DNA of 64,000 nt from Arcobacter sp. (GTDB lineage Bacteria > Campylobacterota > Campylobacteria > Campylobacterales > Arcobacteraceae), in the NCBI GenBank assembly GCA_002869565.1, contig PKUJ01000017.1:1-64000 (forward strand). Direction: 5' to 3'. Numbering within the stretch: the first letter of the stretch is position 1; every line of letters starts with the position of its first letter. This document shows, piece after piece, positions 19,297 to 27,221 of this stretch. The notes below the pieces were generated by a model. That model made no database searches and was not told the origin of the DNA. It saw nothing but the letters and a program-made list of their open reading frames with translations. The position numbers were made by a program, and so were the translations under genes.

Positions 19297-19325
19297 AAGA
19301 TGAGGATTATTTATCCTCATCTTTT
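19297..19325. terminator. Bidirectional terminator between convergent genes
   Basis: AAGATGAGGAT (19297-19307) pairs with ATCCTCATCTT (19313-19323) around a TATTT loop, with T residues on one side and A residues on the other. It serves the acyltransferase gene on the plus strand and glnD on the minus strand, and overlaps the glnD stop. Confidence 0.85.
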
Positions 19326-21847
19326 AAACTTAATTGTTCAATAATCTCATCTTGATTAACACAAAAATTTCCATTTTTTTCAATTAAAAATAGATCTTTA
19401 GCTATTCCTTTTATTGAAGAAAGTTTGGCACTTTCTATCTCAACTTCAAAATCATCAAATACTTTTGCAATATAAGCAAAAAGACCTTTTCTATCTTCAG
19501 CCATAACTTGCATAGAAGCTAAATATGTAGTGTGATTACAATCAATAGTAATATTCTCTTTTTTTATTGTAGGAACAATTACTTTGGTTTTTTTAGTCAT
19601 ATCAAATGAATTTTCAATAATATCTTCTATATATAAGAGGTCTTCGTTATCTATTTTCTCTGAGAATCTAATTTCAAAGAATTTTTTATTATCGTATAAT
19701 TTAAAAATATTCATAGTTGAAATATTTAAAAATTCTAATCTTCCAAGTAAGAAACCAAGATTTAAAGGAACTTTTCTAATAATTCTAATTACTAGATTTT
19801 CATCATTTATTATTTCATATCTAAAGCTTTGAACATCATAAGCATTTATTGAAATATCAAGTATTTCTTTTGCTTTTAATTGTAAAAACATTTGATTTGA
19901 AGCAATATACATTACTTTCTTTTTCATAATATCAGGAAGTTCTTTGTATCTTTTAGATTTTTTTATACTCTCTTGTTTTGCAAGTCTTCTTGCATTTTCA
20001 GTTAAAAGTTCAACATTATCAAAGGCAGGTAGAGATTGATTGTAAAGCTGTCTTAGTAAAGATGCTGTAGAGCTTTTATAAATACTTTCACCCACAGCTG
20101 ATATATCTGCATAAGTTACAACATAAAGCATTTTTAGAGCCAGTTCTGATTTTAATAAAGCAGTAAAAGCTAAAATCACTTTTTCTGAATAAATATCTTC
20201 ATTTGATGCTACTTTACTCATCATATTATGATACCTTACGAGTAAAGCTCCAATTTGAATATCTTTATATTCAAAATCAAAAGATGTAGTCATACTCTTA
20301 AAGAGTTTTTCTCCTGATAAATGATGGTCATTTACTCTTCCTTTTCCAACATCATGAAAGAGACAAACAAGTCTGATGATAGCTTGTTCTTTTTTTTCCA
20401 AAGAATCATAAATTTCTTTTACATATGAATCACTAATTTCTTGTATTTTTTTAAGTGTTTTGATTGAATGAACATCAACTGGATGTTGATGATATCCATC
20501 AAATTGCGGTTGATTTACTATTTTTTTAGTTACAGGTAATACTGTTTGAAAAAGTCTTGCATTGTAAATTAATTTTATAATTGGATATAGATTTTCTCTA
20601 AAAAGTAGAGTCTTTATACTTTTCTTTAACTCTTTTGTATGTTTACTAGGAAGTATTGATCTACTTGCATAATAAACATATGATCTATCAAATTGATGAA
20701 CATCATCTGGCAAGTCAATTAGTTCATTTAATAAATCAATTAATTTTTTTGGTTTTGCACTAAATGAAGTATAAAGTTTATTTTCAAATATATATAAATT
20801 CCTTTTATATCTATATTTCTTACATTCAAAAGGGTGTTCTTTATTTGTAATAATTTGTCTAGTGAATTTTTTTACCATAATGGTTGAAAAAAAGTGAACT
20901 CTGTGTAAGGCTTCTAAAATTTTTGCCATACATTGTCTCTCTTTTGTCATTCTTGGAGTATGGCTAAATCCAAGTTTAGAACTTAGTTCAGGTAGAATAT
21001 CGAAATTTACTACATCTAGTTTTTTGTTGGCAATATTGTGTAAAGCACTTCTAACTTGAAAAATATATTCTAAAGAACTTCTATATTTTTTGTACTCATC
21101 TTCTGTGAATTCTTTTCCCATAAGTTGTTTTATATCACTTACTCCAAAAATCACTGTAGCCATCCAAAAAATCATATTTGATTCTCTCATCCCACCGTAA
21201 CCATCTTTTATATTTGGCTCCATTTTCAATGGATATTTTAAAAGTCTTTTTTTGTGTTCATCAAGTTTTTCAAGAATAAACTCTTTTTGGTTGGTTTTTC
21301 TTATTTTCTGAAGTACATTTTCATAGCCATACCATAAATATTTTGAACCATATATCATTCTAGATTCTAGTATAGATGATTTGATTGTAATATCTTCTTT
21401 TACACCTTTTTCAATTTCTTGAAGTTCATGGACTCTTGAACCTAGTTTTAAGCCACAATCCCAGGCAAGAGTTATAAAATCTTCTATAAGAGGTTTTAGG
21501 TTGTAACCTAATATATCTTCATAAAGAATCATTAAATCTACATCTGAATGGATGCAAAGTTGTTCTCTACCATAAGATCCTAAAGCTATAAGAGTGATAG
21601 GAATTGAACTTCCCATAGGAAGGTAATTCTTAAAATGTTTTCTCAAAATATATTTGTACATAAGTACTAAAAATTTGTCGGTATGTTTTGTATGTTTTAC
21701 AAAAAAATCTTTTCCACCTGTAGTTTCAAGAGTTGTATCTATTGATATTACATATTCTTTAAAATAATTCCTAAAGACTTTTGAAATCTCAAAATCACTA
21801 GCATTTGTAGAAATCAGTTCTTCTATTTGAATATTAAGTTCTGTCAT
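19307..21847 (-). CDS. glnD: PII uridylyltransferase / uridylyl-removing enzyme
   Basis: 846 residues, normal length for GlnD, which senses glutamine and modifies PII at Tyr51. The nucleotidyltransferase domain has GSYGREQLCIHSDVDLMIL (near residue 90-110), the HD domain has LFHDVGKG (near 490), and two ACT domains fill the last 150 residues (one with ASMQVMAEDRKGLFAYIAKVF). It overlaps the upstream NtrC-like gene by 14 bp and is co-transcribed with it. Its targets, two PII proteins with an intact T-loop tyrosine, are encoded 3-5 kb away. Confidence 0.96.
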   Translation of the reverse strand: MTELNIQIEELISTNASDFEISKVFRNYFKEYVISIDTTLETTGGKDFFVKHTKHTDKFLVLMYKYILRKHFKNYLPMGSSIPITLIALGSYGREQLCIHSDVDLMILYEDILGYNLKPLIEDFITLAWDCGLKLGSRVHELQEIEKGVKEDITIKSSILESRMIYGSKYLWYGYENVLQKIRKTNQKEFILEKLDEHKKRLLKYPLKMEPNIKDGYGGMRESNMIFWMATVIFGVSDIKQLMGKEFTEDEYKKYRSSLEYIFQVRSALHNIANKKLDVVNFDILPELSSKLGFSHTPRMTKERQCMAKILEALHRVHFFSTIMVKKFTRQIITNKEHPFECKKYRYKRNLYIFENKLYTSFSAKPKKLIDLLNELIDLPDDVHQFDRSYVYYASRSILPSKHTKELKKSIKTLLFRENLYPIIKLIYNARLFQTVLPVTKKIVNQPQFDGYHQHPVDVHSIKTLKKIQEISDSYVKEIYDSLEKKEQAIIRLVCLFHDVGKGRVNDHHLSGEKLFKSMTTSFDFEYKDIQIGALLVRYHNMMSKVASNEDIYSEKVILAFTALLKSELALKMLYVVTYADISAVGESIYKSSTASLLRQLYNQSLPAFDNVELLTENARRLAKQESIKKSKRYKELPDIMKKKVMYIASNQMFLQLKAKEILDISINAYDVQSFRYEIINDENLVIRIIRKVPLNLGFLLGRLEFLNISTMNIFKLYDNKKFFEIRFSEKIDNEDLLYIEDIIENSFDMTKKTKVIVPTIKKENITIDCNHTTYLASMQVMAEDRKGLFAYIAKVFDDFEVEIESAKLSSIKGIAKDLFLIEKNGNFCVNQDEIIEQLSLKDEDK

Positions 21848-22598
21848 CCAAAAATTCCTTATGGGTATCTAGTTTTTTTCTAAGTGTAATTCTATTTAGT
21901 CCTAAATGTTTTGCCATTTGAACTTGTGATTTATATTTTTTTGTTGCAGCTTTTAAAAGAGGAACTTCAAGAAGATATAAAAAATCTTTATAGGAACTGT
22001 CTCCATGCATATTTGAAAACATATAGTTTTCCATAAACATTAGAATCTCATCTTCCCCAATAGTTTCAAATAGATATGAAAAATATATTGACTTTCTCAA
22101 ACTATGAGCATTATTGGATATATTTATCATTAGTCTAGATGGAATAATTTGTTCCAAATCTAAAGTACTACTAGCTTCTTTTGAAAACTTTATAGTTAAT
22201 GCTTTTACATCTTCTTCTCTATCTTTTAAAGGAGGCAATTCAATTGTAATAGAAAATAATTCAGCAAGTTTAGTATTTAATTCATCTTTTAAAGTTGTTG
22301 CAATTACTCTAATATTATTTTCATTTACCCAATTTATTAGCAAATCGACATTTGTAATATTTTCTATTTTGTCTATTATAATCGAACAGTTTTGTAAATT
22401 GATTATATTGTCACTTATATCTTGTTGTAAATTTTTAGCTTTAAATATTGGCGCTTTAGGCACAATATATACTGATAATGATTTTTTACCAACACCTGGT
22501 TCTCCAGAAATTAGGGCACTTACTTCAACACTTTGTAGAAGATGTGCAGAGTTTAAAATTTCTTTAGAATTTTTTGATATTGCTATATAATTTTCCAT
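21834..22598 (-). CDS. Shortened NtrC-like AAA+ regulator with Fis-type HTH, no GAFTGA loop
   Basis: 254 residues. Walker A is GEPGVGKKS (32-40) and a degenerate Walker B is IIIDKIE (D76). A PPLKDREEDV segment typical of NtrC proteins follows, and the C-terminus is a Fis-type helix-turn-helix (QVQMAKHLGLNRITLRKKLDTH). Only about 36 residues separate Walker A and B, against over 60 in NtrC. The missing part is where the GAFTGA sigma-54 contact loop belongs. It has no receiver domain. It shares an operon with glnD and neighbours both ammonium transporter units. I infer a DNA-binding nitrogen regulator that no longer works with sigma-54. AAAGG and TATAAT (minus strand, 22619-22614) precede it. 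Confidence 0.8.
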   Translation of the reverse strand: MENYIAISKNSKEILNSAHLLQSVEVSALISGEPGVGKKSLSVYIVPKAPIFKAKNLQQDISDNIINLQNCSIIIDKIENITNVDLLINWVNENNIRVIATTLKDELNTKLAELFSITIELPPLKDREEDVKALTIKFSKEASSTLDLEQIIPSRLMINISNNAHSLRKSIYFSYLFETIGEDEILMFMENYMFSNMHGDSSYKDFLYLLEVPLLKAATKKYKSQVQMAKHLGLNRITLRKKLDTHKEFLDDRT

Positions 22599-22627: not shown

Positions 22628-23485
22628 CTATTTCTTTTTTGTTAGATGAATAAATACTGCTAGGGCAATTAATATAAGAGAAATACCAGTTATTAAGTAT
22701 AAGGCATTTATCATATTGTGATAATCATCTATTGCAATTTTAAATACAACAATTAGTGCTTCTATTGATAAAGCAATAATAATTGTAATTAAAAATTTTG
22801 TAATCATTTTTGTTTCAACTCTAGAATTCTTTGAATAAGATTTGAAAAACACTTCTTGTTCTAATATGGTTTTAGCTAAATCAAATATTGCAATACCTAA
22901 AGTTAATGCAATAATTGGTTTAAATATTACTTCTAATTCTATACCCTCTTTAAAAAGGACAAAAGTTATAAAGTCATATAAAGAGTATAGAATGATAAAT
23001 GTAGACAGTGCAATCATAGAAAAACCAGATAACATATAGAAAAATTTAGTTGCTGTATGAAATGGTTTATTTAATTCAATTAAGTTTAATCTTTCGAGTA
23101 ATACATCAATTCTAAAATCTAAAAGTATTATCTTATCATTTTCTTTTATTGTTACTGTGATACAACTACTTCTTGTGGCACTACTAATATATGGAGTTGA
23201 AAATGCCATATTAATATCTTTAAACTCAACTCTTGAGATTAAATAACTTCTATCTTTATTAATAGCTTTATTATCTATTTTTTTTCTATAATAATTAGGA
23301 GAAGTTTGAGTTTTAGAATTTTTGTCTACTAAATATACTAGTTCTAAAGATGGAAAAACATTAAATATATCATTGAAGTTATATTTCTCATAATTACTAA
23401 GATCTCCTATATTTTTGAGGCTCTCTTGTATGAAAAATTCTATTTTATCACGATTTTGTTCATAAATTTCTAAAAATTCTTTCAT
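22628..23485 (-). CDS. Membrane protein with N-terminal PDC/Cache-like region
   Basis: 285 residues. The first ~145 resemble a PDC/Cache sensor fold (a short helix-rich start, then FPSLELVYLVDKN, TQTSPNYYRKK, DRSYLISR and a terminal DFRIDVLLERL helix). About four membrane helices fill the rest, and the protein ends in a KKK tail. No kinase, cyclase or methyl-accepting domain is present. There is no signal segment before the sensor region, so its side of the membrane is unclear. AGGAG precedes the ATG. A TGTATA-N5-TATACA site centred 30 bp upstream of the -10 box links it to the amtB genes. The function is unknown; a nitrogen-related sensing role is inference. Confidence 0.6.
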   Translation of the reverse strand: MKEFLEIYEQNRDKIEFFIQESLKNIGDLSNYEKYNFNDIFNVFPSLELVYLVDKNSKTQTSPNYYRKKIDNKAINKDRSYLISRVEFKDINMAFSTPYISSATRSSCITVTIKENDKIILLDFRIDVLLERLNLIELNKPFHTATKFFYMLSGFSMIALSTFIILYSLYDFITFVLFKEGIELEVIFKPIIALTLGIAIFDLAKTILEQEVFFKSYSKNSRVETKMITKFLITIIIALSIEALIVVFKIAIDDYHNMINALYLITGISLILIALAVFIHLTKKK

Positions 23486-23506: not shown

Positions 23507-23512
23507 ATTATA
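23507..23512 (-). promoter_or_regulatory. -10 box of the PDC-like gene (minus strand)
   Basis: TATAAT on the minus strand, about 22 bp before the start codon, in the context GATATAATAAC. The palindromic site at 23534-23550 is centred 30 bp upstream of it, at roughly -42 from the expected start. Confidence 0.55.
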
Positions 23513-23533: not shown

Positions 23534-23550
23534 TGTATATTAAATATACA
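23534..23550. promoter_or_regulatory. TGTATA-N5-TATACA site 1 (PDC-like gene promoter)
   Basis: TGTATA (23534-23539), TTAAA, TATACA (23545-23550), flanked by AA/TT on both sides. It is one of three identical-core palindromes before the transcription units of the nitrogen island. An extra half-site, TGTATA, lies at 23519-23524. Confidence 0.75.
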
Positions 23551-23681: not shown

Positions 23682-23698
23682 TGTATAAAAAATATACA
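23682..23698. promoter_or_regulatory. TGTATA-N5-TATACA site 2 (amtB1 promoter)
   Basis: TGTATA (23682-23687), AAAAA, TATACA (23693-23698). Its centre is 40 bp before the extended -10 element TGATAGAAT (23727-23735) of the first amtB. The stretch 23551-23670 between the divergent genes shows nothing else beyond a weak inverted repeat (AGTCC...GGACT). Confidence 0.75.
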
Positions 23699-23726: not shown

Positions 23727-23735
23727 TGATAGAAT
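23727..23735 (+). promoter_or_regulatory. Extended -10 promoter element of amtB1
   Basis: TGATAGAAT fits TG-N-TANNNT. The start codon is 29 bp downstream. No -24/-12 sigma-54 element (TGGCAC-N5-TTGC) is visible in this intergenic region. Confidence 0.6.
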
Positions 23736-23764: not shown

Positions 23765-24979
23765 ATGGAAAATTTTAATGACTTAAAATACATTTTAGAT
23801 GGTTTCTTATTTGTATTTTCTGGTGTTTTAGTAATGTGGATGGCAGCAGGATTTGCTATGTTGGAAGCGGGTCTTACAAGAACAAAGAATAATGCAACGG
23901 TGTTAACTAAAAATATTGCACTATTTGCAATTTCTTGTATCATGTATTATTTTGTAGGTTATAACTTAATGTATGGTGATGGTGGAGCTATTATGGGAAG
24001 TTTCTCTACAATTAGTATGGTAACTGCAGCAGATGCTTCTTATCCTGCAGCTGCAGACTTTTTCTTCCAAGTAATGTTCGTAGCAACTGCTGCTTCGGTT
24101 ATTTCTGGAACGATTGCTGAAAGAATGAAATTGTGGCCATTTTTAATATTTGTTGTAGTATTAAGTGGTATTATTTATCCTTTACAAGGTCACTGGACAT
24201 GGGGAGGAAGTGAATTAGGCGGTATCATTGCTGGATTCTCTGACTTTGCTGGGTCTACTATTGTTCACTCTGTTGGTGGTTGGGCTGCCTTAGCTGGTGT
24301 TCTTATTTTAGGAGCTAGAAAAGGTAAATATGGTAAAGATGGTAAAGTAAGACCAATTCCTGGTTCAAATTTAACTCTTGCTACTTTAGGTACATTCATT
24401 TTATGGATGGGTTGGTTTGGATTTAATGGTGGTTCTCAATTAGCTTTAGGTTCAAAAGCTGATATTGACGGAATTGCTATGGTAGTTGCTGATACAAATA
24501 TGGCTGCTTGTGCTGGTGCAATTATGGCTGCTTTATTAACACAGCTTCTTTACAAAAAAGTGGATTTAACAATGGTTCTTAATGGGGCATTAGCAGGTCT
24601 TGTATCTTGTACTGCTGGTCCAGATTTAGGAATGATTGTAGCATTTATTGAAGGTATTGTTGGTGGTGCTTTAGTTGTATTTGCTGTACCATTTTTTGAT
24701 AAATTAAGAATTGATGATCCTGTTGGGGCTTTATCTGTTCACTTAGTTGCAGGTATTTGGGGAACTATAGCTGTAGGTATCTTTAATCCAGAAGTTACTA
24801 TATTAGCTCAACTAAAAGGGGTTGTTGTAATTGGTGCATTTGTATTTATTTCTTCATTTATTATCTGGAAAATACTTGATGTAGTTGTTGGATTAAGAGT
24901 TGATGAAGAGACTGAGATTACTGGTCTTGATATCCACGAAACTGGTCTTGAGTGTTACCCTGAGTTCAAAAAAGCTTAA
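23765..24979 (+). CDS. amtB: Ammonium transporter 1
   Basis: 404 residues and 11 predicted membrane helices of the Amt/MEP/Rh family. It has the family signatures AGFAMLEAGL, DFAGSTIVHSVGGWAALAG, GWFGFNGGSQ and, near the end, DDPVGALSVHLVAGIWG (one of the twin pore histidines). It conducts ammonium across the inner membrane and is normally gated by GlnK. The glnK gene follows after 20 bp, the classical amtB-glnK pair. AAAGGA is 7 bp before the ATG. Confidence 0.96.
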   Translation: MENFNDLKYILDGFLFVFSGVLVMWMAAGFAMLEAGLTRTKNNATVLTKNIALFAISCIMYYFVGYNLMYGDGGAIMGSFSTISMVTAADASYPAAADFFFQVMFVATAASVISGTIAERMKLWPFLIFVVVLSGIIYPLQGHWTWGGSELGGIIAGFSDFAGSTIVHSVGGWAALAGVLILGARKGKYGKDGKVRPIPGSNLTLATLGTFILWMGWFGFNGGSQLALGSKADIDGIAMVVADTNMAACAGAIMAALLTQLLYKKVDLTMVLNGALAGLVSCTAGPDLGMIVAFIEGIVGGALVVFAVPFFDKLRIDDPVGALSVHLVAGIWGTIAVGIFNPEVTILAQLKGVVVIGAFVFISSFIIWKILDVVVGLRVDEETEITGLDIHETGLECYPEFKKA

Positions 24980-24996: not shown

Positions 24997-25338
<342 letters not shown>

Positions 25339-25392: not shown

Positions 25393-25409
25393 TGTATATT
25401 TTATATACA
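25393..25409. promoter_or_regulatory. TGTATA-N5-TATACA site 3 (amtB2 promoter)
   Basis: TGTATA (25393-25398), TTTTA, TATACA (25404-25409). The symmetry extends to 10-bp perfect arms (25390-25399 with 25403-25412). The centre is 41 bp before the TATAAT at 25442. Confidence 0.75.
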
Positions 25410-25441: not shown

Positions 25442-25447
25442 TATAAT
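25442..25447 (+). promoter_or_regulatory. -10 box of amtB2
   Basis: A consensus TATAAT 31 bp before the start codon. A regulated sigma-70 promoter is implied by the palindrome upstream. Confidence 0.6.
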
Positions 25448-25477: not shown

Positions 25478-26665
25478 ATGGATTTAGAATCAGTAAGCTA
25501 CGTAATTGATACCTTTTTTGCAATATTTGCAATGACATTGATAATTTTTATGGTGCCAGGTTTTGCAATGTTGGAAGCAGGACTTGTAAGGACTAAAAAT
25601 GTTTCAGCAGTATTAATGGTTAATACTATGATTTATTCAGTTGCATCATTATCATTTCTTTTAATAGGTTATTCAATTGCATTTGGTGATTTTGGAAGTG
25701 ATTCAATGTCTAAATGGGCGGCATTTTTATTTCAAATGGCTTTTGTTGGAAAAGTAATTAATATTATGTCTGGTGGAGTATCTGAAAGAGCAAAAGTTTT
25801 ACCTTTAGCACTATTTACAATAATTATGGGTGCTTTTATTTACCCAACTGTTGTAAATTGGTCTTGGGGAACAGATATGTTAGAAGGAACTTTTTTAGAT
25901 ATTTCAATGTATGATTTAGCAGGATCAACAGTAATCCATAGTACGGGTGGTTGGGCATTGTTAGCTGCAATTCTAATTATTGGTGCTAGGCGTGGAAGAT
26001 ATACTGAAAATGGTGGAGTTAGAGTTATCCCTGCTTCAAATATTCCTTTAGTAACCTTAGGTGCTTTTCTATTATGGATTGGATGGTTCGGGTTCAATGG
26101 AGGTTCAGTAGGATCAATAGCTTCAAAAGAATCGGCTGACGCAGTTGCTTTAACTATTATGAATACGAATACAGCAGGGCTTGCAGGTGCAATCATTGTT
26201 GGTGCATATATGTATTTTAGATATGGAAAACTAGATATTACAATGGTATTAAATGGCGCTTTAGGTGGTTTAGTTGCTATTACCGCTGGACCTGATTTAT
26301 ATAATATATATACACCAATTTTAGTTGGTGCAATTGGTGGAGTAATTGTAGTATTTGGAGTATCTTTCTTTGATAAATTAAAATTAGATGATCCTGTTGG
26401 AGCACTTTCTGTTCATTTATTAAATGGTATTTGGGGAACACTAGCTGTTGGAATTTTTGCCTCAAATGGGGATACAATTACACTTATGGGACAACTTAAG
26501 TGTATTATACTTGTTGGAATTTTTGCATTTACAGTTTCATATATAGTTTTATTTATAATCAATAAAATAGTACCATTAAGAGCAGATAATGATGAAGAAA
26601 TGCAAGGACTTGATGTAGATGAGTGTGGTGTAGAAGCATACCCAGAATTTAAACGAGCATTTTAA
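25478..26665 (+). CDS. amtB: Ammonium transporter 2
   Basis: 395 residues, paralogous to the transporter 1.7 kb upstream, with the same Amt signatures (PGFAMLEAGL, DLAGSTVIHSTGGWALLA, GWFGFNGGSV, DDPVGALSVHLLNGIWG). Its C-terminal tail (GLDVDECGVEAYPEFKRAF) resembles that of AmtB1, the region that responds to GlnK. ATG with GAGGA upstream. It was presumably once directly followed by its PII gene. A 143-bp palindromic element now begins at its stop codon. Confidence 0.96.
   Translation: MDLESVSYVIDTFFAIFAMTLIIFMVPGFAMLEAGLVRTKNVSAVLMVNTMIYSVASLSFLLIGYSIAFGDFGSDSMSKWAAFLFQMAFVGKVINIMSGGVSERAKVLPLALFTIIMGAFIYPTVVNWSWGTDMLEGTFLDISMYDLAGSTVIHSTGGWALLAAILIIGARRGRYTENGGVRVIPASNIPLVTLGAFLLWIGWFGFNGGSVGSIASKESADAVALTIMNTNTAGLAGAIIVGAYMYFRYGKLDITMVLNGALGGLVAITAGPDLYNIYTPILVGAIGGVIVVFGVSFFDKLKLDDPVGALSVHLLNGIWGTLAVGIFASNGDTITLMGQLKCIILVGIFAFTVSYIVLFIINKIVPLRADNDEEMQGLDVDECGVEAYPEFKRAF

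Positions 26666-26858: not shown

Positions 26859-27221
<363 letters not shown>

Follow-up and report, generated by a model that had tools for sequence, protein, structure and literature searches.

What can a protein of the NtrC family still do when the receiver domain and the loop that contacts sigma-54 are both gone? The question is raised by a nitrogen locus in a 64,000-nucleotide stretch of Arcobacter sp. DNA (assembly GCA_002869565.1, contig PKUJ01000017.1, positions 1 to 64,000 of the forward strand), which as a whole is called the window here, the genome it comes from being called the host. The protein, referred to below as the regulator, is encoded next to glnD and opposite two ammonium transporter genes. 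It is quite probable that this regulator binds the palindrome TGTATA-N5-TATACA and controls sigma-70 promoters of nitrogen genes. A wider proposal is given about an even chance, namely that the regulator and a second protein are an NtrB-NtrC pair without phosphotransfer on either side, rebuilt as a direct-contact switch at sigma-70 promoters throughout the Campylobacterota, with the partner gene often directly behind rpoD. The regulator gene and its parts are as follows.

21834..22598, minus strand: regulator open reading frame, 254 aa with an ATG start, an AAA+ remnant plus a Fis-type helix-turn-helix (HTH), NtrC family
22482..22505, minus strand: Walker A, GEPGVGKK, residues 32-39, a conserved P-loop
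22368..22385, minus strand: Walker B position, residues 72-77, with IIIDK at its end and acidic residues that are unconserved
21864..21992, minus strand: Fis-type HTH, residues 203-245

Searches of Pfam and NCBIfam with the regulator returned weak, partial and split matches, comprising the P-loop half of Sigma54_activat, TIGR01818 (NtrC) and the Fis HTH. A profile built from 27 homologues matched Aquifex NtrC1 and NtrC4, VpsR, ZraR, FleQ and Fis in the Protein Data Bank (PDB), with NtrC1 best at E = 9e-11; because E-values of about 1e-10 for NtrC structures are joined by 7e-7 for Fis, the assignment to the NtrC family is not a product of chance. The AlphaFold model (mean pLDDT 89.5) was matched by Foldseek to ZraR, PspF, NtrX and NtrC1. 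The protein has an NtrC-type AAA+ core that begins at about residue 5 and carries a conserved P-loop (G32 and G37 in 27/27 homologues, K38 in 26/27), and it ends in a Fis-type HTH, the recognition helix of which is nearly identical to that of Fis (NRGTLRKKL vs NRITLRKKL), with N235, R236, T238, R240, K241 and K242 invariant in the 27 homologues.

The losses are equally regular. A GAFTGA-like string occurs in 0 of 82 homologues, and a receiver domain is absent from all of them, their lengths of 236-311 aa being too short to hold one. From K38 of Walker A to D76 of Walker B there are 38 residues, compared with 65 in NifA of the same genome. An earlier sequence-only reading had described these features, with a spacing of about 36 residues, no GAFTGA loop, no receiver and an intact Fis-type HTH, and the family-wide comparison bears it out. 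It had also called the Walker B motif weak, which turns out to be an understatement, since D occupies position 76 in only 11/27 homologues and E position 77 in 1/27, so that the motif is unconserved. The DE pair of Walker B for ATP hydrolysis therefore appears not to be kept in the family, and the combination of a kept P-loop with a lost Walker B is compatible with ATP being bound but not hydrolysed, in line with the ATP sensing that the earlier reading had suggested.

The putative target of the HTH is a short palindrome. TGTATA-N5-TATACA has exactly 8 perfect copies in the 3,490,316 bases of the host genome, whereas the reversed control pattern has 2, and reading each neighbourhood placed all 8 beside nitrogen or nitrogen-linked operons: the glnD operon (the regulator's own), amtB, a second amtB, glnA, urtAB (urea), a formate/nitrite-family transporter with cyanase behind it, two amino-acid ABC operons that diverge from each other, and a mannosyl/glucosylglycerate phosphatase-synthase operon. 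Three of these sites lie in the locus itself, where the glnD operon (membrane protein, regulator, glnD) is divergent from amtB-PII-amtB-PII, an arrangement found throughout the host genus. The overlap of the regulator and glnD genes agrees with the earlier placing of the two in one operon.

19307..21847, minus strand: glnD, PII uridylyltransferase, overlapping the regulator gene by 14 nt
22628..23485, minus strand: membrane protein without a Pfam family; its gene opens the glnD operon and in many genera is linked to that of the regulator
23534..23550, no strand: 17-bp palindrome TGTATATTAAATATACA in front of the operon of membrane protein, regulator and glnD (putative autoregulation)
23507..23512, minus strand: predicted -10 of the glnD operon (TATAAT), with the site centre 30 bp away
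23682..23698, no strand: palindrome TGTATAAAAAATATACA upstream of amtB
23730..23735, plus strand: predicted -10 of amtB (TAGAAT), with the site centre 40 bp away
23765..24979, plus strand: amtB ammonium transporter, first copy
25000..25338, plus strand: PII protein (GlnB/GlnK), first copy
25393..25409, no strand: palindrome TGTATATTTTATATACA in front of the second amtB
25442..25447, plus strand: predicted -10 of the second amtB (TATAAT), with the site centre 41 bp away
25478..26665, plus strand: amtB ammonium transporter, second copy
26877..27221, plus strand: PII protein, second copy

In further genomes, sites were found at gdhA, gltB, glnA, an ammonium transporter, nifA, ethanolamine ammonia-lyase (eutB), quinohemoprotein amine dehydrogenase, glucosylglycerate phosphatase again, a nitrate-reductase-type (nasA-type) molybdopterin enzyme and an NMT1-type (nitrate-type) ABC binding protein; a few have no obvious link to nitrogen. 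The site analyses were limited to 0-1 mismatch because the count at up to 2 mismatches exceeds chance only mildly, the window holding 17 such sites against 10.6 expected. That the motif is a chance product of an AT-rich genome was rejected, given the 8 exact copies against 2 reversed ones, their uniform link to nitrogen and their near-absence from relatives without the regulator. Moreover, the site has the same 17-bp palindromic layout as the Escherichia coli NtrC box, TGCACCA-N3-TGGTGCA (PMC8743547).

Three details of this putative regulon may be added. In one further genome (G032, locus L234) an exact site stands at nifA, which would place nitrogen fixation under the regulator there. The operon for glucosylglycerate, a nitrogen-free compatible solute, carries a nitrogen site in two genera (L054:4666-7831 and L237), which suggests a switch to a nitrogen-free osmolyte upon nitrogen limitation. 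Near a TRAP transporter gene there are two sites with 1 mismatch (L053:974-1012), and since an exact site accompanies a close relative of this gene in G032 (L236), the transporter gene is likely to be a further member of the regulon.

If the regulator acts at these sites, their position relative to the promoter should tell in which direction. The geometry was read from 174 distinct site-gene pairs with 0-1 mismatch in 53 gene families, a -10-like hexamer being defined as TA...T with at least 5/6 matches to TATAAT. Such a hexamer lies at a distance of 39-41 bp from the centre of the site in 20.8 of the 53 families when weighted by family, compared with 3.8 ± 1.6 and a maximum of 9.2 in 500 shuffles of the downstream DNA. 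With the transcription start assumed to be about 12 bp past the first base of the -10, the site centres fall near -52 and, in some promoters, near -42. This places them over the -35 region or immediately before it, in the position where activators of sigma-70 RNA polymerase bind. It is conceivable that the regulator instead represses nitrogen operons when nitrogen is plentiful, as some sites are near promoters and the -10 of the glnD operon in the host genus stands at a distance of only 30 bp, one helical turn less; however, the commonest distance of 40-41 bp puts the site just upstream of the -35, an activator position, and few sites overlap the -10. Repression is accordingly regarded as unlikely, and the targets are read computationally as sigma-70 promoters of nitrogen genes that the regulator would activate.

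The link between site and protein was examined in Aliarcobacter, where the regulator is present in some genomes and missing from others. The 17 genomes with it contain 2-9 exact sites each, and the 14 without it contain none, except for one genome with 1 (Mann-Whitney p = 1e-6, uncorrected for shared ancestry). Among these 14, glnD is retained in 9, all with 0 sites, and in 8 of them the glnD region (L271-L278) keeps amtB, PII and glnD while holding no site at up to 1 mismatch; the sites therefore vanish with the regulator and not with glnD or the targets, and the possibility that they follow the latter was rejected. In the two of these regions that were read, a gene for an ankyrin-repeat protein lies between amtB and glnD.

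Co-loss alone cannot single out one protein, and the partner described below was lost along with the regulator. A different transcription factor, lost at the same time, might thus bind the TGTATA palindromes, leaving the NtrC-like protein with another task. This is slightly less probable still than repression, as many genera have the palindrome at the promoter of the regulator itself, the palindrome has the layout of the NtrC box, the regulator has a strictly conserved Fis/NtrC recognition helix, and no HTH family was found for the partner or for the membrane protein. The tracking of sites with the regulator and the nitrogen link of 8/8 host sites support the earlier suggestion that its HTH is the probable reader of TGTATA-N5-TATACA.

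The polymerase that would be recruited is indicated by the distribution of sigma-54. The A. butzleri genome paper reports rpoN and homologues of NtrB/NtrC to be missing (PMC2147049), in agreement with the sequence-only reading as regards sigma-54. A. butzleri is not the host, though, and the assumption that the host lacks sigma-54 failed, since rpoN is present about 17 kb from the NifA gene. The sigma-70 conclusion survives this: among 104 Arcobacteraceae genomes the regulator is found in 81 and rpoN in only 33, 49 of the 81 regulator-bearing genomes have no rpoN, and no GG-N10-GC element occurs in the three intergenic regions of the glnD/amtB locus. Taken together with the TATAAT-like -10 at a fixed distance from the sites, this supports the proposed re-use at sigma-70 promoters. 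The presence of rpoN in the host and the kept AAA+ fold might suggest that the regulator is still a sigma-54 activator, but GAFTGA is absent from every homologue, the regulator persists where rpoN is missing, and GG-N10-GC is found downstream of 1/174 sites, which means that -24/-12 elements are essentially absent from the target promoters; such a role is very improbable. In the host genome, NifA (L001:892-2436; G000:C34, about 108.7-110.3 kb) alone was found to have a full sigma-54 activator domain. An in-frame TAG follows its residue 355, and its loop reads GAFTDA instead of GAFTGA, reflecting an assembly error, a pseudogene or a real variant.

How a signal would reach a regulator without a receiver is suggested by a second protein. 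The regulator family is present in 166 of 397 Campylobacterota genomes from 49 genera, nearly always without internal stops, and a PAS-containing partner is present in exactly the same 166 genomes (166/166); a search of plasmids found no relatives. Within the Arcobacteraceae the two co-occur in 80 genomes, with one exception each way (G075 and G041, both fragmented assemblies). That the regulator is a decaying gene product without function, as the lost Walker B and GAFTGA loop could imply, is hardly credible in view of this intact spread, the invariant HTH, the preserved sites and the obligate partner.

In distant genera the partner is recognizable as a gene of about 230 aa that follows the regulator. 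In the host it is unlinked to the regulator (C25:107162-107839) and starts 6 bp after rpoD (L253:2300-4849). Among 14 further genomes it lies behind rpoD in 10, adjoins the regulator in 3 and does neither in 1, and where families with an unlinked partner were read, it stands behind rpoD in most. Pfam and PDB sequence searches gave no match, so that only structure comparison could place the protein. Its structural model (pLDDT 87) matches histidine kinases, including the NtrB/NRII catalytic domain 1r62 (TM by target 0.61), and also the NifL-NifA complex 9qq6. The alignment contains no invariant histidine and the model no DHp hairpin. These features point to an NtrB-type protein reduced to a PAS domain and a degenerate ATPase-like domain. 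With no receiver on one side and neither the histidine nor its hairpin on the other, receiver phosphorylation by NtrB has no counterpart in this pair; a PAS protein with a degenerate kinase ATPase that always accompanies the activator is a trait that the pair shares with the NifL-NifA type.

The regulator would accordingly supply the DNA-binding half of a nitrogen control pair in the Campylobacterota that is of NtrB-NtrC type but reduced. PII and GlnD would report the nitrogen status, being the most likely point of signal entry, and the PAS partner would relay it by direct contact and not by phosphorylation, because the regulator lacks both the receiver and the sigma-54 contact loop. Binding of the partner to the regulator under the influence of PII is suggested by co-occurrence and by the gene neighbourhood. 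The regulator, which may bind ATP as a structural or sensing ligand, would then occupy the 17-bp palindrome through its Fis-type HTH, recruit sigma-70 RNA polymerase and activate nitrogen genes, its own operon included, from about -52 or, at some promoters, about -42.

Several observations weigh against this scheme. The 166/166 agreement does not represent 166 independent events, as presence profiles share ancestry. The global TM-scores of the partner model are modest because its PAS part and its ATPase-like part align independently of each other. Few exact TGTATA sites occur in families with the gene order slyD-regulator-fabD, and the binding motif or the regulon may therefore differ there; the tie to the motif is clearest in the Arcobacteraceae, and in some other families a site is found only at the regulator-amtB locus (L206, L212, L224, L227). 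Moreover, nifA of the host has no site at up to 2 mismatches.

Some elements of the proposed system are known from elsewhere. GAFTGA-less bacterial enhancer-binding proteins (bEBPs) acting at sigma-70 promoters have been described in the Alphaproteobacteria, namely NtrC of Rhodobacter capsulatus and of Caulobacter (PMC10274813), and for the former ATP binding is needed and hydrolysis is not, according to work cited in that paper. The regulator shares with both the NtrC lineage, the L1/GAFTGA deletion and, by prediction, a nitrogen regulon and sigma-70 promoters. However, those proteins keep a receiver and are controlled by NtrB phosphorylation, whereas the regulator has neither a receiver nor a conserved Walker B, belongs to another phylum, is associated with the TGTATA-N5-TATACA site and has a partner without kinase machinery. 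E. coli NtrC (NR-I) and NtrB (NR-II) resemble the pair in the AAA+ domain and Fis-type HTH, the 17-bp palindrome, the amtB-PII/glnA/GlnD context and the likeness of the partner to the NtrB catalytic domain, and differ in having the receiver, sigma-54 use and the histidine domain. NifL-NifA likewise pairs a PAS and degenerate kinase-like protein with an AAA+ activator, but NifA has a GAF domain and is a complete sigma-54 activator, while the activator here is minimal and of the sigma-70 type. Vibrio VpsR, itself a GAFTGA-less bEBP at sigma-70 promoters (PMC10274813), and Brucella NtrX are NtrC-like AAA+ proteins among the nearest structures, yet both are full-length, carry a receiver-type domain at the N-terminus and serve other functions. 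Fis, with nearly the same recognition helix, belongs to the nucleoid proteins and has no AAA+ domain.

What is new here is the loss of the receiver and of Walker B, the kinase-less partner, the different phylum and the phylum-wide spread. A literature search, conducted mostly outside subscription papers, found no earlier description of the regulator-partner system and no general nitrogen regulator for the Campylobacterota. The analysis gives a large group of marine and sulfur-cycling bacteria a named regulator, with a putative site and regulon, and a candidate for its signalling partner. It also presents a clear example of a two-component pair whose task seems to have survived the loss of phosphotransfer in both proteins and of the original sigma factor.

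Other gene orders occur beyond the host genus. In more distant genera the regulator adjoins amtB-PII and, in many, the gene of about 230 aa. In many other Campylobacterota it is found behind the Tol-Pal cluster, flanked by slyD and fabD and overlapping the end of slyD (L211, L213-L217, L219-L221, L228); no partner gene is found in these clusters, the partner being behind rpoD instead, and a gene of similar size within them was rejected as a candidate, as it reads as a nucleosidase. In some distant genera a gene of about 760 aa lies upstream of the regulator; it was weighed as a possible sensor and then dropped, since by eye it reads as a molybdopterin-type oxidoreductase. The membrane protein encoded at 22628-23485 is conserved, has a soluble N-terminal part and is possibly a third component of the system.

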